A stretch of 64,000 nt of DNA. Source: Pirellulales bacterium. Lineage in GTDB: Bacteria; Planctomycetota; Planctomycetia; Pirellulales; PALSA-1355. How positions within the stretch are numbered: position 1 is the stretch's first letter; each line of letters starts with the position of its first letter. Positions 48,840-57,922 of this stretch are shown piece by piece. The notes beneath the pieces were generated by a model. The model made no database searches and was not told where the DNA came from. It saw only the letters and a list, made by a program, of their open reading frames with translations. A program made the translations under genes and the position numbers. The DNA is taken from positions 1 to 64,000 of the forward strand of contig JALHMI010000005.1 of the NCBI GenBank assembly GCA_022844125.1. Reading direction: 5' to 3'.

Positions 48840-50783
48840 TCACTCGTTGGCCGGCACCGACTCGGCTTCGGCAGCGGCAGGTTCCAGCGACGCGGCCGGC
48901 GCTCCCTGTGCCAGTCCGCTTACCAGGCGAATCACCCGGGCGTGCATGTCGGCCGACCAGAAACCGACAAGGCCCTCCATCTGCTGAGTCAAGTCGCGGC
49001 GTGACTTCACCCGGGCGATTCCGTACATCTGGGCACATGGCGAGGCGTCGACTCCGTTATCCTGCAGGAGCGCGATGCTGCGGCGGGCCTGATCTTCTGA
49101 AAAGGTAAGCCACTCGGCCAGGGTTCGCTCACGCCCGACGCCCACGACATATCCCGAGTCATTCAGCTCGGCATCGAGCGAATAGTATTTGGCTAGCAGG
49201 CCGGCGGCGCGAATGTGTGTATAGAGGCTGGTCGAGAGAAAGGCGTATCCCAATGCGTCGCCGTCACCAAAATAGCGTGATAACTCGGGAAACACGTATT
49301 GCTCGGCGCCACGCAAAATCGCGTAATTTCGATCGCGGAACATCAGTCGCGTGCGCATCTCGCTGCCAGCGACAGAGAGTTGTTGTGCGGCCGGCTCGAC
49401 GACAACCGCGTCGAAAACTGCCAGATTCGCGCTTGATGCGCGCCTGAGGTAGTCGCCCGCTTGCCGCCAGGGTGCATTTTCCGGGATCACCTTGCCCTCG
49501 TAGCCCGCGGCTAGATCGAGATAGTCACCAGCGAGCTTCAGGTCGAGCCAGCCGATAATTTGATTCTCGGCAGCCGTGCCAATCAAGGTCAGGGCCGCTT
49601 CGCTGTCTTCGTCGGGTGCATTGGCGAGCGCCTCCTTGGCCAGTCGCTGCAAGGCAATACCCTCGACGAAAGCGTCGCAGGCGATCAAGTAGACCGAGAG
49701 CTGATCCAGCGAACGCGGCACCTCGTTCTTCATTCGGGACGAGACCCGCTTGACTTCGTCTTCGAGCCATTCGTTGTTGCGTAGCCGCTCCAGTAGGCCG
49801 TCGTATCCGCGAGTGGCGTAGGTATAGCGGCAGCGGCCGGTTTCGAGCGCCAGATAACCGCAAACGGCAGCAAAGATTCGGTCCCAGAGCGCGGCCGTGA
49901 ACTCACCCTCTTCGACCAGCTCGCCGCTGCGCTTGATCGAGTCGACTCCCTGCTGATAGAGATTGATCACCTCTTGGCTGAGCCCTGCGGTGTTCTTCAG
50001 TTCCTTGAAGGACGTGAGGGATTGCTCGTAGCGGTCATACCAGACCGAGAGTTTCTTGCGAATCTCCTTTTGCGCCGCGAGTGTCACTTGCGGCGTGTGG
50101 GCTTCGGGGTCGCGGGGAAGTTCGACATTCGTGAGCAGCTTGTAAGCATGGTAGACGTCAAACACACCGATGACCTTCACGCCGAGTTTGTCGCCATGCT
50201 CGACCAGATCGATTCGCTCCCCGTCAGCGTCTATGTCGAAGCGGACGCTGCCGGGAATCAGCACCAGCGTCATGCCTTTTTCGGCCGCGCCGCTAATTTT
50301 ATGGGCAATTCCACCGACGGGGCCAATCGAACCATCGGGGTTGATCGTGCCTGTCATCGCGGCATCCGCGCGCACCTTGTCGCCGCGCACAGCCGCCAGC
50401 ACCCCACAGGTCATGAGCGCACCAGCGCTAGGACCGTCAATGCGCCCCTCGTACTCAAACGAAACGCGCATCGTGCGCGGATCGAAATCGGTAAGCATCG
50501 CGGCGGTGACCGCCGCCATCCAGCCTGCGCTTCGCCACTGGTCGCCGGTACCCCCCACTTCACTCTCGAAAAACCCGACCCTAGCCGAGCCGTTCGCGTT
50601 ACCGTCTGCCGAAATGGTGACTGGACTGCAGTGGCCGACGGCGCTGCCGTCTGATGCCTTGCCGTAGGTAAGCACGTGCACGACAACCGAGCGTGTACCT
50701 TGAGCAATTGCGAGGTCGCTCGCCTGCCACAATACTGTCAGCATGAACAGGACCGGCGCGGTACCGACAAGTGGCGAACGCAT
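48840..50783 (-). CDS. Exported Lon-type (S16) protease domain protein
   Basis: The product is 647 residues. A signal peptide (residues 1-28, ending AIA) precedes a Lon proteolytic domain at about residues 35-220. The Ser-Lys dyad is visible: Ser119 in IDGPSAGALM and Lys162 in GGIAHKISGAAEKG, with the usual 43-residue spacing. There is no AAA domain. The remaining 400 residues are helical, with no recognised domain, and may be an adaptor or substrate-holding region. An exported Lon catalytic domain without ATPase is uncommon, so the energy source and substrate are open questions. Confidence 0.83.
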   Translation of the reverse strand: MRSPLVGTAPVLFMLTVLWQASDLAIAQGTRSVVVHVLTYGKASDGSAVGHCSPVTISADGNANGSARVGFFESEVGGTGDQWRSAGWMAAVTAAMLTDFDPRTMRVSFEYEGRIDGPSAGALMTCGVLAAVRGDKVRADAAMTGTINPDGSIGPVGGIAHKISGAAEKGMTLVLIPGSVRFDIDADGERIDLVEHGDKLGVKVIGVFDVYHAYKLLTNVELPRDPEAHTPQVTLAAQKEIRKKLSVWYDRYEQSLTSFKELKNTAGLSQEVINLYQQGVDSIKRSGELVEEGEFTAALWDRIFAAVCGYLALETGRCRYTYATRGYDGLLERLRNNEWLEDEVKRVSSRMKNEVPRSLDQLSVYLIACDAFVEGIALQRLAKEALANAPDEDSEAALTLIGTAAENQIIGWLDLKLAGDYLDLAAGYEGKVIPENAPWRQAGDYLRRASSANLAVFDAVVVEPAAQQLSVAGSEMRTRLMFRDRNYAILRGAEQYVFPELSRYFGDGDALGYAFLSTSLYTHIRAAGLLAKYYSLDAELNDSGYVVGVGRERTLAEWLTFSEDQARRSIALLQDNGVDASPCAQMYGIARVKSRRDLTQQMEGLVGFWSADMHARVIRLVSGLAQGAPAASLEPAAAEAESVPANE

Positions 50784-51602: not shown

Positions 51603-52301
51603 CTAGTCGAGCGTCAGATTGCGAAACTTCACTCGCAGCTTTATCTTTGTCGTCCAGCCGATGCCGGTACGGTCGAGTGAGAGTGTCTCGAGCAGCTTAA
51701 GTTGGGGCAAGATTACGTCGAGTGCATCGGGATCGACGACCGTACCGGTCAGGTCGAGATGCCTGAGCGTGTCGAGCTCACGCACTTTCAGCAGACCGCC
51801 TTCCGTCACGGATGTGTCGATCAGAGCCAACTTCCGCAGCCCGGCGAGCATGCGGCGTTGAGCGACCAGCTGTTCGATCTTTGCGTCGTCGATCTGGGGT
51901 CCCATAAGCGTAATGCCCGTGAGCTTGTCGAGCACGACGGCAAAATCGGGGCCAATGGAGCGGCTGAGCGGATCGGAAGAGTTAACGTCGACGTTGCCGG
52001 CCCAGGATTTGACCTGCTCGATGAGCTTTTCCTGTTCGGCGTACTGCTCGACCCAGCGACTCAGCCAAGCCATCCGGCCCGACTTAAAGCGGGCGTACTC
52101 AGTCGCCTGCTCGAAAGCTTCTTGCAGCCGTTTGAACTCCTCGACGCTGCCTCCCTGGTCGGGATGGGCCGTGCGGGCTTTCACCAGATAGGCTTGCTTG
52201 ACGTCTTCCTCGGTAACTGGCGGGGCGAGCCCCAGAACAGCTAGAAACTCGTGACGCTCGCCATGAAACTCGGTCGAGACTGGCTCGGGAGCATTGGACA
52301 T
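51603..52301 (-). CDS. J-domain protein with C-terminal leucine-rich repeats
   Basis: The product is 232 residues from ATG 52301, with AAGGAAG upstream. A GTG at 52322 is an alternative. The J domain spans about residues 17-70 with HPD at 46-48 (TAHPDQGGS). From about residue 150 there are LRR-like units such as GLRKLALIDTSVTEGGLLKV and TLRHLDLTGTVVDPDALDVI. J domains recruit DnaK/Hsp70. The LRR part probably chooses the client. It follows the barrel and C39 genes on the same strand after 119 bases, so it might share their transcript. Confidence 0.82.
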   Translation of the reverse strand: MSNAPEPVSTEFHGERHEFLAVLGLAPPVTEEDVKQAYLVKARTAHPDQGGSVEEFKRLQEAFEQATEYARFKSGRMAWLSRWVEQYAEQEKLIEQVKSWAGNVDVNSSDPLSRSIGPDFAVVLDKLTGITLMGPQIDDAKIEQLVAQRRMLAGLRKLALIDTSVTEGGLLKVRELDTLRHLDLTGTVVDPDALDVILPQLKLLETLSLDRTGIGWTTKIKLRVKFRNLTLD

Positions 52302-52420
52302 CGGACTCGGCTTCCTTGGCACTGCGGTGGCACGGCGAACGGCTACTCAGCAATCCTAGCCCGCTACGTCCGGAAAAGCACCCCTGTGCTCGCGGTATTT
52401 CCCGGCGTTTCGTCGGGGTG

Positions 52421-53191
52421 TCAGGGGATGAATCGAGGGTATGGCGCCTGCGGTACCATCGTCCAGTTCCGATTCACGGTCTGATCATTCAGCAGGCCGC
52501 GAAACACCTCGGTGAAGCGAATTCCCAGCGGATTCACGTCCTTTACTTTGGCGTTCGGCTTGGCGATCACCAGGATCGCGTTCTCCTGCCATTGGCCGAT
52601 GAACTTGTCGGCCAGCGTGCGGATGTTGCCGCGGATCGGATCGGCCAGGTACACGTAGTAGCCGTCATACCCGCGAAACACGACGAAGTGGTCATGTCCG
52701 TTGACCGTGACGCCGACGATGACCGGCACTTTGGCTTCGATGAGCTCGTGGAATTTGACTTTGCCCATCGACGACTGGTAGCCGGCCATATTCGCCATGT
52801 CGCGCAGATCGGTTAGCGTCAGGCCGTTTTCGATTCGATCGCGAATCTGCTCGTCCGTCAATTTAAGACGTTGGACGAGCACAAGAAACGTATTTTCGTT
52901 AACCTTGTCACCCCAATAGTACCGCGCGACCGTTGCCAGCGCGGCGGCGCCGCAGGAGTAGTCAAGCTGCTGCATCACCACTTGTCGCTCGCGCAGCTCC
53001 TTGTAGCTCCAGACATATTCGCGAACAAGCCGATCCTCCATCCGAATTGGCGCGCGGGTGTATTCATTGAACTGCGCACGGGCGTAAGTCGCGCAGGTGC
53101 AGATCCCGGCCGCAGCAAGGAAGACAGCAGCCAGCACGCGCGACGACGCTCGGCAGGTTCCCGGTAGACTGGTCGCTGGCCGCATGGTCAT
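52421..53191 (-). CDS. C39-like cysteine peptidase (exported, no ABC domain)
   Basis: The product is 256 residues. A signal peptide spans about residues 17-40. The C39 catalytic set is visible: the glutamine region QQLDYSCGAAAL with Cys80, His168 in GHDHFVVFRG and Asp184 in VYLADPIRGN. C39 peptidases remove double-glycine-type leaders from bacteriocins or, as in FapD, act in functional-amyloid export. Here the domain is free-standing, without an ABC transporter, and exported. It begins 42 bases after the outer-membrane barrel gene on the same strand. Two small secreted proteins with a candidate leader lie 3.4-5.5 kb away. Confidence 0.87.
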   Translation of the reverse strand: MTMRPATSLPGTCRASSRVLAAVFLAAAGICTCATYARAQFNEYTRAPIRMEDRLVREYVWSYKELRERQVVMQQLDYSCGAAALATVARYYWGDKVNENTFLVLVQRLKLTDEQIRDRIENGLTLTDLRDMANMAGYQSSMGKVKFHELIEAKVPVIVGVTVNGHDHFVVFRGYDGYYVYLADPIRGNIRTLADKFIGQWQENAILVIAKPNAKVKDVNPLGIRFTEVFRGLLNDQTVNRNWTMVPQAPYPRFIP

Positions 53192-53233
53192 CTCGCTGGA
53201 AATCGGTTCCCGAACGACGTCGAATCGCGATGG

Positions 53234-54550
53234 CTAGTAGAGCGTGACTACAACGCCAACATTCGCCCGCGGCGCGGAGTCGGTCATGCCTATCACACAG
53301 AACGGTTCGATGATCCTGCAGTTCCGCACGATGGTCGCTGCGAATCGCATTGTGAGTGGTTCGAGATTCGAGCCGCGAATCGCTTCATTGTCGACGCTGG
53401 TGTTCGTCAGGTAGAAACCCTGGAACGTGGTGCTCAGCGTCACGCGATCGTTGATCGAGAAGCCAACCCCCAGCATGTAGTTAGCCTGGTCACCTGGCTG
53501 CACTTCCACGTCGTCGAACGAGCGTTCGAACAAGTGCCGGTAACCGCCACCGTAGAACACAATCACGGGGTCATAGCGGTGAATCGCCAGAAGTTGGGCA
53601 TTGTAGGCCCAAAATCCTTGCCCCAAAGCGGAGCCTGGCACCGTGCCGAAGATCGGAGCGTTGAACTGACCCGTGGGGGCTGTCGACCCGATCGTGCCGA
53701 TCACGTCGGGTAGCATGTCGTCGCCGTCGAACAGGTGGATGCTCGCGCCGAAAGTCAGGTCGCCCAACCCCCCGACGTTGAACGTTTCGCTTTGGCCGGC
53801 CCCGACAAACTGGGTATTGGACCAGCCGATCGGAAGCGCGGCGAACAATTGGATATTCTCGGTGAATCCGTAACGCGCGGCCAGCGGCGTGAACAGCAGT
53901 CGCTGTCGGACTTCGCCTTCGTCAACATCGAACGGAATCACGAACGGAAAGTCGTTGGCAAAGTGCGTGTATACAAAGCCTGTATCGAGCTGCCATGCAC
54001 CAGGCTCGAGCAGGACATCGATGTCGCGCAGAAACTGTAAGGCATTGTTCGTGGGCGCCTGACCGTACGTCTGCTGATCGTTCGGCTGACTGCCCGCGGC
54101 GGGCGCTGCGCCTTCGCGCGGTTGCTCCTCCTCACTCGGCGGAGGTTGTGGCTCTTGCAGTTTCGAGAACCGGAATAGCGGTTCCCCCGGAATCGGGTTA
54201 AGCGTCGTGGCGGGACTGCTAGGTGACTGATTGCCAGGAGCGGCGTCTATGTAGTTCACCACCTGGCCAGCAGGCTGGCCAAAGTTGGGCAGCCCGGCCT
54301 GCGACAGGAATGTCGCGCGCTCTCCCGCGGAAGAATCGACTGGCGGCAGTCGGCGGCTCGCAACCGGGAGCGGCGCCGCCTCCGCACCGAGTCCGCTGAC
54401 GACGGCCGGCGAATTGCGGGATTCGGCCGGCTCGTCGCCCTGGGCCAATGGCGGGACGAGCAGACATAGCGCGGCTAGTCCCGCCGCGAGTCTCCGACGC
54501 ACGGTTGGGTTCGGGAAGTTCTTTCCCGAGGCTCCGAGCGATTCGTCCAT
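53234..54550 (-). CDS. Outer-membrane beta-barrel pore protein
   Basis: The product is 438 residues from ATG 54550, preceded by AAAGGTGG. A signal peptide ends near LAQG (residues about 18-38). Residues 40-170 are Pro/Ala/Ser/Glu-rich and probably disordered. Residues 175-438 are alternating amphipathic strands with aromatic girdles (DTGFVYTHFANDFPFVIPF, QLLAIHRYDPVIVFYGGGYR) and end in VVVTLY, a typical barrel C-terminus. The barrel resembles phenol-degradation MetA/FapF-type pores. It is the first gene of the run barrel, C39 peptidase, J-LRR. Confidence 0.8.
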   Translation of the reverse strand: MDESLGASGKNFPNPTVRRRLAAGLAALCLLVPPLAQGDEPAESRNSPAVVSGLGAEAAPLPVASRRLPPVDSSAGERATFLSQAGLPNFGQPAGQVVNYIDAAPGNQSPSSPATTLNPIPGEPLFRFSKLQEPQPPPSEEEQPREGAAPAAGSQPNDQQTYGQAPTNNALQFLRDIDVLLEPGAWQLDTGFVYTHFANDFPFVIPFDVDEGEVRQRLLFTPLAARYGFTENIQLFAALPIGWSNTQFVGAGQSETFNVGGLGDLTFGASIHLFDGDDMLPDVIGTIGSTAPTGQFNAPIFGTVPGSALGQGFWAYNAQLLAIHRYDPVIVFYGGGYRHLFERSFDDVEVQPGDQANYMLGVGFSINDRVTLSTTFQGFYLTNTSVDNEAIRGSNLEPLTMRFAATIVRNCRIIEPFCVIGMTDSAPRANVGVVVTLY

Positions 54551-55216
54551 GGCCCACCTTTGTTGTGCGTCTGCCGTCTACAAATGTCTGCTTCAAAGCC
54601 CGAGGCACGCCTCGGACGTTGCGATTGGGTCGCACTTCGTCCACGCGGCTCGAGTAGTTTTCAGGCGGACGGCCTGACCTGCGAACGCGGCGCAACCGTC
54701 CTATCCCGTTGATCTGGATCGACCGCCATATCCCGTACAATGAGAACAGTCGTCAGGCCCGCTAAAGTTTCGCTGACCTGCGCCTTTTAACAGCTGCTGG
54801 GGGCAAGTCCGCAACTCATTGGGCAGCAGTGCCTTACATCCACTCTTCCGTCGCGATCAGGTCAGACTCGCCGTTTGAGATCACCGCCCAAGCGTGAAAC
54901 TGTAGCGGTTCTATCGATTCTCCCACGTGGTTCAAACCTGCGGGTTGTACGCGTTACTCCGTCAAAGACCGCTCGCATCAATTCGTCCGAAAGTGCGGAC
55001 GATGATACGTGCAACGAAAAGTGCGGTGGCGCCTAGCGACCCGCGCTCTCGGCGAGGCTTGCCGTGGGGCTTGAAAGTCCACTGAACCGTGCCCAACACG
55101 CAGCGACGATCAAGGCGGCAAGCAGGACCAAAAGGCGTTCGTCAACGTACACCACGGTTCGCAATGAACCCAAATGCGGCCACGCTGGTCGCGAGATCCC
55201 AGGAGGGGGTGAGGAG
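54551..55216. other. Divergent promoter region of the two barrel genes
   Basis: The 666 bases between the minus-strand barrel and the plus-strand barrel contain no convincing gene. Small palindromes are visible, such as CGTCC...GGACG near 54985-55000 and CAGGC-ggacg-GCCTG near 54661. Both upstream regions must be here, but I cannot place -35/-10 boxes reliably. Confidence 0.4.
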
Positions 55217-56416
55217 ATGAAGAAGTCACTATCAAAGTTTGGCATGCTGCTCACGGCGATGGGGATTGCCGCCAGCGGACAAGCCTTCGGCGGCGATCAG
55301 ACGGAGCCAGTATTCCGTCCTCCGCTGATCCAACAGGTATCTGCGCAGCAAACGGTGCCGGCAACGAAACCGGCTCCGGAACCGCCGCAGCAAGTCCCCA
55401 CCAGCCGTTGGGAAACGCAGGAGCCGATTCAAACGCCCGAGCAACCCGCGGGTCCCGTGGCTGCCGGTTGTGGGCAGTATGCCGTCGGTGATCTGTGTTG
55501 TGCCCCGGGCTGTCAGTTCATCGTGGGCATTGAAGCCACATTCTTCTGGCCGCAGTTGAGCCGAGAGTTCTTATCGACGACGCTTTCCAACGAACTCGGC
55601 ACTGCGACGTACGTCGACAATGCGGCGCTCGGTTCCGTCGATGGCAACTTGCTCGTAGGTCCGCGCATCACGCTCGGCGTGCAGGGCGAATGTTGGGGCC
55701 TGGTCGGCCGCTATTGGAATTCTGCTACGAACGGCAATAACTTCACACCGGCGATTCCAGACTCGGTGCAAAGTGGCATCCTGCTGTTTGATCAATTCAG
55801 CGTGTACACGGCCGATCTCGAAGTCCAACGCCGCTTCTGCTGGCGCAACTGGGACATGTTCGGATACGGCGGCGTTCGCTACGCGTCGGTGAACAACGAC
55901 CGCAATATGTGGGTCCAGAATACGTTTGGCGACGACATCGTCCAAGGACAGTCGTACTCGGGCCAGCAGTTCAACGGTGCCGGTCTAACCGGCGGCGTGT
56001 TCGGACTACGACCGCTATTCTGCGATGACGGAGCCCTGAAGGCTTACTTCTCGAATCGTTACTCCATCCTGTGGGGTAACGGAGTGGCGAATGTCCAGAC
56101 CCAGGCCCAAGCCGCGACTTTGGGTGGCGGTGACTTCCAGTCGTTAGACGGCGCGATCGCGGGTGGCGACGGCGACCTGTTCATCTTCGAAATCGGCGCC
56201 GGTCTCCAGTGGGAGACGTGCCTGTGCTGTCTGCCAGGTCGTGCCTTCTTCCGCTGCGGCTTCGAATGGCAATACTGGGACTCCAATGCCGGTGTGGCAG
56301 CCAGCTCGTTTAGTGAGGCAGTCTCCGGCGACGCATCGGCTTTCAGTACGGCCGATGCCGGCGAACTCCTGTTCGACCTGGTCGGCTTCACAATCGGCGG
56401 CGGCCTGACCTACTAA
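55217..56416 (+). CDS. Planctomycete outer-membrane beta-barrel protein (BBP7/Lpg1974-like)
   Basis: The product is 399 residues. ATG 55217 is set by the strong GGAGGGGGTGAGGAG site just before it. The signal peptide covers residues 1-25 (ending GQAFG). A Pro/Gln-rich linker leads to a Cys-containing start (CCAPGCQFIVGIEATFFW) and then a long series of amphipathic strands with repeated aromatic residues, ending GFTIGGGLTY. The pattern fits the large barrel families common in planctomycete outer membranes. No transport substrate can be predicted. It is divergent from the minus-strand barrel and is followed by a perfect hairpin. Confidence 0.75.
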   Translation: MKKSLSKFGMLLTAMGIAASGQAFGGDQTEPVFRPPLIQQVSAQQTVPATKPAPEPPQQVPTSRWETQEPIQTPEQPAGPVAAGCGQYAVGDLCCAPGCQFIVGIEATFFWPQLSREFLSTTLSNELGTATYVDNAALGSVDGNLLVGPRITLGVQGECWGLVGRYWNSATNGNNFTPAIPDSVQSGILLFDQFSVYTADLEVQRRFCWRNWDMFGYGGVRYASVNNDRNMWVQNTFGDDIVQGQSYSGQQFNGAGLTGGVFGLRPLFCDDGALKAYFSNRYSILWGNGVANVQTQAQAATLGGGDFQSLDGAIAGGDGDLFIFEIGAGLQWETCLCCLPGRAFFRCGFEWQYWDSNAGVAASSFSEAVSGDASAFSTADAGELLFDLVGFTIGGGLTY

Positions 56417-56449
56417 GGCGGACACAAACGATTGTCATGGGATTAAAAT

Positions 56450-56486
56450 CGGGTCCTGTCCGCCAAGCCTCGGCGGACAGGACCCG
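56450..56486 (+). terminator. Hairpin terminator after the barrel gene
   Basis: A 15-bp perfect stem, CGGGTCCTGTCCGCC (56450-56464) with its complement at 56472-56486 around a 7-base loop, lies 34 bases after the stop. There is only a weak T-tract (TATGGTTT). Confidence 0.65.
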
Positions 56487-56540
56487 TATGGTTTCGGGCG
56501 GGGCAGTCGGCCTTGGCATTCGACTGCCACCAAAGCAAGG

Positions 56541-56571
56541 ACCCTGCTGCCGCGCTTGGCGGCAGCAGGGT
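56541..56571 (-). terminator. Hairpin terminator after small secreted protein A
   Basis: ACCCTGCTGCCGC (56541-56553) pairs perfectly with 56559-56571. On the minus strand it lies 56 bases past the stop of the small-protein gene and is followed by CCTTGCTTT. Confidence 0.65.
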
Positions 56572-56626
56572 TTGCTAGTTTCACATCAACCAACTCTGGA
56601 TCATCTAACCGGAGATGGCGATCAGC

Positions 56627-57037
56627 TTACCACGCCGATGCGCGAGCGCTGCCGCCGGCGTAACCGCCCTTGATGCTGCCCTGGAGGGCCGCACCGGTCG
56701 GATCAATACCGAAGCTGATATGGCCTTTGCCGGCGAAGCTAAAGCTGTTGCCCTGGGCATTCGACGGCTTGCCGAGCCACGAGGCGCCAGCTTGGTAGTT
56801 GTTGTTTGAGGTTTGGCCGTGGTAGCTAGCGCTGCTGCTGCCCCAGACTTTGGCGTTCGTGCCACCGCCATAGCCGCCCATGTAGCCCTTACCTCGAACG
56901 GCAGTGCCTTCGCTGTCCGACATCTGCTGCATGCCGCCCAGGCCCATCGAGGCCAGGGTCGACTTCGAAACCGGCTCAACGGCCGACGCGGTAGCGGCAA
57001 ACAACATTACCGCACAAGCAATTGCAAAGCTCTTCAT
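56627..57037 (-). CDS. Small secreted Gly/Ser/Asn-rich protein A with conserved leader
   Basis: The product is 136 residues. GAGGACC lies seven bases before ATG 57037. The Sec signal peptide is MKSFAIACAVMLFAATASA. A conserved leader-like segment follows, STLASMGLGGMQQMSDSEG then TAVRGKG. The rest is low-complexity Gly/Ser/Asn/Ala with aromatic spacers (AKVWGSSSASYHGQTSNNNY) and a closing block FGIDPTGAALQGSIKGGYAGG. It is paralogous to the protein at 57518, which shares leader and block order. The composition suits a surface polymer, adhesin or bacteriocin-like product. No known family is recognised. Confidence 0.78.
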   Translation of the reverse strand: MKSFAIACAVMLFAATASAVEPVSKSTLASMGLGGMQQMSDSEGTAVRGKGYMGGYGGGTNAKVWGSSSASYHGQTSNNNYQAGASWLGKPSNAQGNSFSFAGKGHISFGIDPTGAALQGSIKGGYAGGSARASAW

Positions 57038-57371
57038 TGAATGGTCCTCATGAAAGTGGAATCATCGTAGCAATTCAGCCCCGGCCACATGCACGGCAAG
57101 CGGATTACGCGCGCACGCTCCGAGGTTAGAAGTCCGAGTCTCAAAGAGCCGTGGCCCTTCAATACCCACCTGACCCGAAGGCCCAAATGGCGTCCCAAGC
57201 GGGAGTGGTTGACGCTGCGCAGCAATCAATCGAGTGACAGACTAGTTATCCTCAAAGTCATTGTCAACAGTTTGACCGCTAGAATCCCCCCAGCTTGCCA
57301 AAACTCTCGAGGAATTCGTCCCCCGTGCCTCCATGGAGCTTCCCCCAAGTCGTTCGCGCGCAAAAAAACAC

Positions 57372-57407
57372 GAGGCCCTGTCGCCATGCGGGGTGCGACA
57401 GGACCTC
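57372..57407 (-). terminator. Rho-independent terminator after small secreted protein B
   Basis: On the minus strand, a 13-bp stem with one mismatch (GAGGTCCTGTCGC / GCGACAGGGCCTC) is followed within three bases by seven T residues (57362-57368). It lies 110 bases past the gene's stop. The rest of the gap 57038-57517 has no gene. Confidence 0.88.
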
Positions 57408-57484
57408 GTTCACAGAAATGAAAGCCTGGATGGCTCGTACCTGGCAGGAGGATCGAAGGAGATCCTTGCTCGGTCATTAACCGC

Positions 57485-57502
57485 GCGGCCACCTGTGGCC
57501 GC
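57485..57502. repeat. Solo palindrome related to the CACAGGTG family
   Basis: GCGGCCAC-ct-GTGGCCGC is perfect and shares the GCGGCCACCTGTG core with the terminal hairpins of the CACAGGTG elements at 15251 and 20948. It lies 15 bases after the stop of small protein B. Confidence 0.55.
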
Positions 57503-57517
57503 TGGAGTTAAGTAGCA

Positions 57518-57922
57518 CTACTTGGCGAACGCGAACGCGCCACCGCCGGCGAAGCCGCCCTTGGAACTGATGCTCAAAGCCGCGCCGGTCGGGTCGACGC
57601 CGAACTGGGCCTGTGCCTTAGCGGCGAAGCTCAGGCTACCGCCCTTGGCGAAGGACGACTTGCCGTGCCAGTTCGAACCTGCTTCATAGTTGTTGCTGGC
57701 CGATTGGCCCTTATAGTTGGCCGAGCTGCCGCCCCAAACGCCGGCAAAGGTACCCTTGCCGCGAACCTTGGCGCCGGCTTCGTCCGACATCTTTTCCATC
57801 CCGCCCAGCCCCATGGCGCTGAGGGTTTGCGATTCGACGGCCGCGGGAGCTTCAGCAGCAGCCACGTTGACGAAAGCGACCGACGCCAGAACGGCGAACG
57901 CACAGATCGAAAGGCACTTCAT
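57518..57922 (-). CDS. Small secreted Gly/Ser/Ala-rich protein B with conserved leader
   Basis: The product is 134 residues from ATG 57922. An AGAGAGAA site and the signal peptide (MKCLSICAFAVLASVAFVNV) set the start, not the longer frame. Its leader QTLSAMGLGGMEKMSDEAG then AKVRGKG matches protein A nearly position for position. The mature part (GVWGGSSANYKGQSASNNYE, FGVDPTGAALSISSKGGFAG) aligns with A along its whole length. It has its own terminator, so it is transcribed separately from A. The C39 peptidase at 52421 is a candidate processing enzyme, as inference. Confidence 0.78.
   Translation of the reverse strand: MKCLSICAFAVLASVAFVNVAAAEAPAAVESQTLSAMGLGGMEKMSDEAGAKVRGKGTFAGVWGGSSANYKGQSASNNYEAGSNWHGKSSFAKGGSLSFAAKAQAQFGVDPTGAALSISSKGGFAGGGAFAFAK

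Follow-up and report, generated by a model that had tools for sequence, protein, structure and literature searches.

The nearest precedent for the locus described here is the nap island of Neisseria (NapP, NapF and NapABC), where an orphan C39 peptidase and a FapF homologue are found together with small proteins that carry GG-type leaders. In the Fap system of Pseudomonas, with the gene order fapABCDEF, a Sec-exported C39 peptidase (FapD) and a FapF-type pore accompany low-complexity secreted subunits. FapD acts in the periplasm and the secretion of FapC needs its active-site cysteine; papers of 2017-2018 reported that what periplasmic peptidases of the FapD type cleave had yet to be determined (PMC5557850, PMC6173800). 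The putative Fil pilus of Acinetobacter also has a C39 gene (FilB) followed by a FilC/FapF-type barrel.

In a survey of 2025, FapC repeats were a requirement for fap clusters (PMC12392863), a criterion by which systems like the present one would be missed. In a literature search we found no paper describing the module in planctomycetes.

The locus and its peptidase-barrel pair

We studied a window of 64,000 nucleotides from a Pirellulales bacterium (contig JALHMI010000005.1, positions 1 to 64,000). The open reading frames of the window were all confirmed at the coordinates used in the original prediction, which had proposed a protease, pore and subunit export system here. The features of the locus are:

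51603..52322, minus strand: J-domain protein with a weak LRR-like C-terminus (Pfam DnaJ 9e-7), flanking and probably outside the module
52421..53191, minus strand: C39 cysteine peptidase, FilB/FapD-like, predicted to be Sec-exported and periplasmic (Pfam Peptidase_C39 3e-17)
53234..54550, minus strand: barrel 1, a FapF-like outer-membrane barrel and candidate export pore (NCBIfam and PDB FapF matches)
55064..56416 (likely start 55217), plus strand: barrel 2, a second outer-membrane barrel, distantly Legionella MOMP-like (AlphaFold, Foldseek)
56627..57037, minus strand: S2, a small secreted substrate candidate with Sec signal peptide, leader and a Gly/Ser/Ala-rich mature part of ~87 aa (55% identity to S1; leader profile E 6e-17)
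56879..56986, minus strand: S2 leader, TLASMGLGGMQQMSDSEGTAVRG, followed by KG; probable cut at or one residue after VRG (profile match, column statistics)
57518..57922, minus strand: S1, a small secreted substrate candidate with Sec signal peptide, leader and a Gly/Ser/Ala-rich mature part of ~79 aa (relatives, leader profile)
57746..57856, minus strand: S1 leader, TLSAMGLGGMEKMSDEAGAKVRG, followed by KG; probable cleavage site (profile match)

The C39 protein (256 aa, of which the mature part covers about residues 41-256) consists of the C39 domain only, without ABC transporter domains, and is the orphan exported peptidase that had been predicted. By its sequence it is a Sec-exported relative of FilB and FapD: NCBIfam FilB matches at 1.5e-26 (93 bits, curated cut-off 475) and FapD at 6e-23 (81 bits, cut-off 330). 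Homology to FapD, which the original prediction had left undemonstrated, is a distant one, below the curated level. The protein aligns with the double-glycine protease domains 6mpz and 4ry2, and its Gln/Cys/His/Asp active site (Q74, C80, H168 and D184) is invariant in 28/28 relatives.

Barrel 1 is a true relative of FapF. Its sole PDB sequence matches are the solved structures of FapF (5O65, 5O67 and 5O68, E about 3e-9), and NCBIfam FapF matches at 9.5e-11 (41 bits, curated cut-off 700). The comparison of this gene with FapF and Phenol_MetA_deg, proposed earlier, finds both (Pfam Phenol_MetA_deg 1e-5), FapF below its curated level. The match to FilC is weak (0.015, 14.6 bits against a cut-off of 630). 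The protein has a Pro-rich N-terminal extension, a PTG motif and a C-terminal IGMTD-AP-like motif. Its gene is separated from the C39 gene by exactly 42 bp, and in 40/41 related loci it lies directly 5' of the C39 gene on the same strand.

Barrel 2 was rightly seen as part of the neighbourhood. For its start, the GTG at 55064 was rejected in favor of the likelier ATG at 55217. It is a confident beta-barrel by AlphaFold (pLDDT >90 across most of the barrel), and the top Foldseek match is porin I (9nh1, 8e-10). A Pfam search of barrel 2 itself gave no match, and PF05150 matches 6/25 of its relatives (best 1e-4). The closest relatives are located in C39 loci and form a locus-specific subfamily, and barrel 2 is a member of the locus. 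The wider family is found in 88/197 genomes, and we therefore rejected barrel 2 as exclusive to the module; only the closest subfamily is locus-specific.

Relatives of the J-domain/LRR gene and of a BioF-like neighbour adjoin the locus only in a sister genus (G053), and both genes were discarded as parts of the module. That the former might be incidental had been anticipated.

The module is not a classical Fap operon. Only the C39 gene and the FapF-like barrel correspond to the fapABCDEF order; their neighbours are barrel 2 and the leader proteins, and FapA/B/C/E-like genes were not found. The FapC profile gave no match in five genomes, nor in the control genomes, and NCBIfam gave no FapC match for S1 and S2. 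Further, the FapD and FapF scores are far below the curated cut-offs, the substrates carry a double-glycine-like leader that is absent from Fap proteins, and the MOMP-like barrel is additional. The locus resembles Fil in that, of the NCBIfam models, FilB fits the C39 gene best; unlike in Fil, the scores lie below the FilB and FilC cut-offs and FilA-, FilE- and FilF-type proteins are not recognised.

Small secreted proteins, their leader and its distribution

Two small, low-complexity secreted proteins with a common leader-like segment had been predicted, and this is what S1 and S2 are: they are 55% identical and both contain the leader. Relatives of S1 are found in 22 Pirellulales genomes at the sequence level and in 24 by the leader profile. 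Pfam and NCBIfam searches of S1 and S2 found nothing, and the low complexity of the mature parts of the S proteins precludes any inference of homology. In the AlphaFold model of S1 (pLDDT 66, moderate) leader helices at 31-36 and 47-54 are followed by four long strands; Foldseek gave nothing significant and no PDB match for this model.

The leader lies downstream of the signal peptide and has the consensus L..MGL..M..MSDxxGxxVRG. R-2, G-1 and G-18 are invariant (45/45), L-22 and L-17 are found in 44/45 and S-10 and D-9 in 41/45. Conservation is higher in the leader (0.65) than in the signal peptide (0.39) or the mature part (0.47). The spacing is that of the double-glycine leaders of class II bacteriocins (-12/-7/-4, Gly at -2/-1), with one glycine conserved. 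Position -7 is mostly Gly or Ala and the second glycine is usually replaced. VRG tends to be followed by K, T, M or L rather than by a small residue, and the putative cut site is not canonical GG. The leader is very probably the target that the C39 peptidase would cut.

In a survey of 197 Pirellulales genomes the same 24 carry the C39 gene, barrel 1 and the small-protein leader, normally clustered in a single locus. Bythopirellula polymerisocia Pla144 and Blastopirellula marina DSM 3645 are cultured relatives that possess the module. The leader profile found no leader in any genome outside these 24 carriers. The co-occurrence has a Fisher p = 2e-31, a value not corrected for phylogeny and inflated by relatedness; carriers and non-carriers are intermixed within families. 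The link between the pair and the small proteins, which would have been chance had either been seen without the other, thus stands. Leader proteins are in some genomes also found away from the C39 locus. In the window, S1 and S2 do not share an operon with C39 and barrel 1, since barrel 2, encoded on the opposite strand, separates the two pairs.

Proposed secretion route and its alternatives

We consider it likely that the locus encodes a dedicated two-step secretion module, a reading built on the genes present and their homologies, on the intact active site of the peptidase, on the conserved leader and on the strict co-occurrence. Cleavage, the export route, the role of barrel 2 and the polymer nature of the product are what we infer from these. 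Guided by their signal peptides, S1 and S2 would cross the inner membrane by Sec. As both the C39 peptidase and its substrates have Sec signals, processing would take place in the periplasm. There the peptidase would recognise the helical leader by the same hydrophobic positions that serve in double-glycine leaders, with the cut at the glycine of VRG or immediately behind it. Once freed, the Gly/Ser/Ala-rich, beta-forming chain would leave through the FapF-like, trimeric-type pore, and barrel 2 would probably aid surface display or anchoring. PCAT exporters of class II bacteriocins and microcins share the peptidase fold, catalytic residues and leader spacing; unlike in these, the ABC transporter is absent and peptidase and substrates have Sec signals.

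The original proposal of a protease, pore and subunit system holds, and so does the fixed link to the small proteins; for the putative polymerisation of the subunits at the surface, the one direct hint is a leader-bearing protein with curli-like repeats in a single relative. A surface fibre or coat is the likeliest product, at a little under an even chance for the polymer step alone. The module is also a molecular candidate for some of the fibrous material that has been described on planctomycete surfaces.

Alternatively, the module could export bacteriocin- or autolysis-like peptides instead of structural subunits, as the nap island does. Its architecture and leader logic equal those of the island (PMC11798529), and mature S1 and S2 are below 10 kDa and cationic, with a pI of about 9.8. 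However, Naps have 16-36 residues, are cationic and predicted alpha-helical and act in autolysis, whereas the S proteins are Gly/Ser/Ala-rich chains of ~80 aa with predicted beta structure. Although S1 and S2 are cationic, the median charge of the S family is -0.3, close to neutral. Immunity-like genes are not conserved, and one substrate has curli-like repeats. The locus also differs from the island in VRG(K)G for GG, in its clear Sec signal peptides and in its second barrel. We regard a peptide effector as unlikely. Somewhat less probable still is that the target of the peptidase is barrel 1 (for gating) or a different protein, and that the leader stays uncut as a chaperone or pore-targeting signal. 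For Pseudomonas FapD, either FapE or the linker of FapF has been discussed as the site of cleavage (PMC5557850), and in all phyla that were examined no genes pair more tightly than C39 and barrel 1; yet the leader has double-glycine spacing, ends at an invariant glycine and exactly tracks the presence of C39. Finally, S1 and S2 look like recent paralogues, at a distance of 3.4-4.7 kb from the C39 gene, as if the genes were unrelated neighbours and the resemblance of the small proteins a local duplication. Their conserved linkage and their exact co-occurrence, which extends across several families in the 197 genomes, rule this out almost entirely.

Leaders in other phyla

Proteins with a Sec signal and a leader adjoin FapD/FilB-like peptidases in several other phyla. 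Among 97 small signal-peptide proteins near such genes, 11 have a leader of the same spacing against 0.09 expected; the pattern was composed after examples had been seen, so this enrichment is partly post hoc (controls were shuffles and distant proteins). Two of these leaders match Bacteriocin_IIc double-glycine leaders weakly. With the same-spacing pattern no convincing leader was found in classical Paraburkholderia Fap operons.

A Sec signal with a double-glycine-type leader may be the general targeting signal of a widespread pathway, from periplasmic C39 peptidases of FapD/FilB/NapP type to FapF-type pores, of which the Pirellulales variant (VRG leader and dedicated barrel 2) would build a surface polymer. 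We hold this view tentatively, our doubts slightly outweighing our confidence. A candidate substrate and recognition tag of FapD-type peptidases can be read from the genome, conserved over a bacterial order and with counterparts in other phyla, which brings the question of the FapD-type substrate within reach of a test on a single purified protease and a single peptide.

The Pfam model Curlin_rpt found nothing in the genome of the window, in four relatives or on the leader protein L088:8730-9338. This protein, from one relative only, contains three minimal curli repeats (X6QXGX2NX10; 9/20000 shuffles), as in CsgA/CsgB of curli, where unlike here the pore is not of FapF type. Its sequence has a 23-residue period (z = 11).

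Genes of the locus and their relation to the Fap machinery

All genes named in the original prediction, which had proposed a protease, pore and subunit export system for this region, are found in the window.

51603-52322, minus strand: J-domain protein (J-LRR gene)
52421-53191, minus strand: C39 peptidase
53234-54550, minus strand: barrel 1, a FapF-like outer-membrane barrel, 42 bp from the C39 peptidase gene
55064-56416, plus strand: barrel 2, a second outer-membrane barrel, likely starting at the ATG at 55217
56627-57037, minus strand: small secreted protein S2
57518-57922, minus strand: small secreted protein S1

A purine-rich GGAGG stretch precedes the ATG at 55217 of barrel 2, and S1 and S2 are 55% identical. 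Near these genes, 48840-50783 (minus strand) encodes a Lon-type (S16) protease domain without a recognised ATPase domain (Lon_C 2e-12, and a SepM-like match); this protein has an apparent signal peptide.

The C39 protein starts with a signal-like segment ending ...YARA-QF and matches Peptidase_C39 at 3e-17; a domain search found no ABC transporter domain in it. Q74, C80, H168 and D184 are invariant in 28/28 relatives. Its PDB matches, 6mpz (3e-6) and 4ry2 (7e-5), are double-glycine protease domains of peptidase-containing ABC exporters; a PCAT exporter was rejected as an identity for the system. Among NCBIfam models the protein matches FilB (1.5e-26) and FapD (6e-23), both well under the curated cut-offs, and barrel 1 matches FapF (9.5e-11). 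The only PDB sequences that barrel 1 matches are FapF structures, at about 3e-9, and the match takes in the PTG region as well as the IGMTD-AP segment at the C-terminus. Since the peptidase matches FilB and FapD and barrel 1 matches FapF, homology to the Fap machinery, which was beyond the reach of the original prediction, is established, though only as distant homology. Judged by the curated scores, the system is neither Fap nor Fil.

Barrel 2 is modelled by AlphaFold as a confident beta-barrel, and its closest structural match is Legionella porin I (9nh1, 8e-10). Weak Legionella_OMP matches in 6/25 relatives agree with this likeness. The wider family is present in 88 of 197 Pirellulales genomes, while the closest subfamily is located in the C39 loci.

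Co-occurrence and gene order in Pirellulales

Close relatives of the C39 peptidase (E below 1e-28) occur in 24 of the 197 Pirellulales genomes sampled. Barrel 1 is found at high score in these same genomes; one further match is weak. The leader profile of the small proteins also hits these 24 genomes and none of the remaining 173; as it was made from the carriers, the absence in the other 173 is the informative part. The co-occurrence has a Fisher p of 2e-31 when genomes are counted as independent despite their kinship. Families contain both carriers and non-carriers: the family to which the window belongs includes two genomes with everything and two with nothing.

The order is kept in the fetched regions, with barrel 1 immediately before C39 and with barrel 2 and at least one leader protein within a few kb. 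In a second collection, 40 of 41 loci have barrel 1 immediately upstream of C39, on the same strand. Loci without barrel 2 or without a leader protein mostly lie at contig ends; in L161, L162, L163, L179 and L182 barrel 2 is present and no leader protein was detected within the locus DNA examined. The complete set also occurs in one genome from another order of the class (G559, locus L225). Carriers with a species name include Bythopirellula polymerisocia Pla144 and Blastopirellula marina DSM 3645. The J-LRR gene and a BioF-like gene were rejected as parts of the module; they adjoin the locus in the sister genus only.

Gene number varies between loci. Genome G180 (loci L085 and L227) has one C39 gene with eight leader-bearing secreted proteins in its vicinity, spread over about 30 kb, and in a Pirellulaceae MAG a divergent C39/barrel pair is preceded by four tandem leader proteins (L187:2258-4567). 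In genome G009 (L083:8273-10055) one FapF-like barrel is followed by two tandem C39 peptidase genes.

A conserved leader and its counterparts in other phyla

Between the signal peptide and the mature part, relatives of S1 and S2 share a leader ending in VRG. End-aligned, 45 proteins give the consensus L-x2-[ML]-G-L-x2-[ML]-x2-[MV]-S-D-x2-[GA]-x2-[VI]-R-G. Three residues never vary, namely the terminal R and G and the G at -18; L-22 and L-17 occur in 44/45, S-10 and D-9 in 41/45. The leader is more conserved (0.65) than the signal peptide (0.39) or the mature part (0.47). At moderate confidence (pLDDT 66), AlphaFold models the leader as two helices and the mature part after it as four long strands. 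In its spacing of hydrophobic positions and its final glycine the leader resembles double-glycine leaders, with V-R-G-x replacing V-x-G-G. Because the residue following VRG varies (K, T, M, L), there are two possible cut sites: cleavage could fall after VRG or one residue further on.

The comparison across phyla used loci of FapD/FilB-like C39 genes and FapF-like barrels from Proteobacteria, Nitrospirota, Omnitrophota, Verrucomicrobiota and others. The barrel is present in 35 of these 39 loci and barrel 2 in none. Leaders of like spacing can be read in small signal-peptide proteins near the C39 genes, for example MTETQLAAVEGG in three tandem Methylocaldum genes, LTDDQLDTVAGG in Nitrospirales and MTSDELAQVRGEG in Parahaliea. 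A strict pattern, set after examples had been viewed, so that its enrichment is partly post hoc, matches 11 of the 97 small proteins nearby, where shuffles lead one to expect 0.09 (maximum 2 of 500); all three matches among distant proteins trace to a single locus of this kind. A second tally gives 14/182 near and 0/26 far. Two of these leaders weakly match Bacteriocin_IIc, a double-glycine leader model (E 0.007 and 0.015). A related short segment, MDDAALSAATGQDG, possibly a short leader, follows the signal peptide of an Acinetobacter FilA-like secreted protein (L229:4652-5521) adjoining FilB/FilC, and another, ITDYELATMRGG, is found in a Polymorphobacter plasmid locus. The pattern was not seen in the classical Fap operons of Paraburkholderia, in agreement with the statement that Fap proteins lack canonical C39 sequences (PMC5557850).

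The FapF-like barrel ORF of Parahaliea maris (L197:8572-9846) matches excisionase/MAD1 helix-turn-helix models in its N-terminal part; either the start is odd or this is possibly a genuine N-terminal domain. In a Verrucomicrobia MAG (L203:5768-7787), the opening motifs of three secreted proteins beside C39/barrel resemble M-x-D-x-E-M-D and may be a further version of the leader.

FapD/FapF pairs were reported from five further phyla in 2018 (PMC6173800). Relative to the literature found, what is new is a planctomycete form that has a VRG leader and a second barrel, together with the strict genome-wide coupling of the parts. Also new is our proposal that, across several phyla, a Sec signal plus a double-glycine-type leader marks the proteins on which such peptidases act.

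Mode of action and nature of the product

The most likely mode of action is Sec export, leader removal by C39, export through the FapF-like pore and surface assembly. Sec would export all components, the C39 peptidase would remove the leader in the periplasm, and the mature Gly/Ser/Ala-rich chain would leave via the pore and be assembled at the surface; barrel 2 might serve there as an anchor or a second gate. Published work on FapD covers its action in the periplasm and its dependence on the active-site cysteine, but not its substrate (PMC5557850, PMC6173800).

The plan of an orphan C39, a FapF-type pore and leader-bearing small proteins is also that of the Neisseria nap island (PMC11798529), and the main rival to a polymer is an effector peptide system of that type. 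Mature S1 and S2 would suit it, being small and cationic (pI about 9.8); the family as a whole, however, is not cationic (median charge -0.3). We favour a polymer, since the mature chains are low-complexity and beta-predicted and the leader protein of one relative has curli repeats. This protein (L088:8730-9338, the same as L167:9073-9681) adjoins the C39/FapF-like pair of a Pirellulaceae MAG, G129. Pfam Curlin_rpt does not reach it. It carries three copies of the minimal curli repeat consensus X6QXGX2NX10 (PMC3521004), a number reached by 9 of 20000 shuffles, and has five 23-aa curli-like repeats with a 23-residue period at z = 11.
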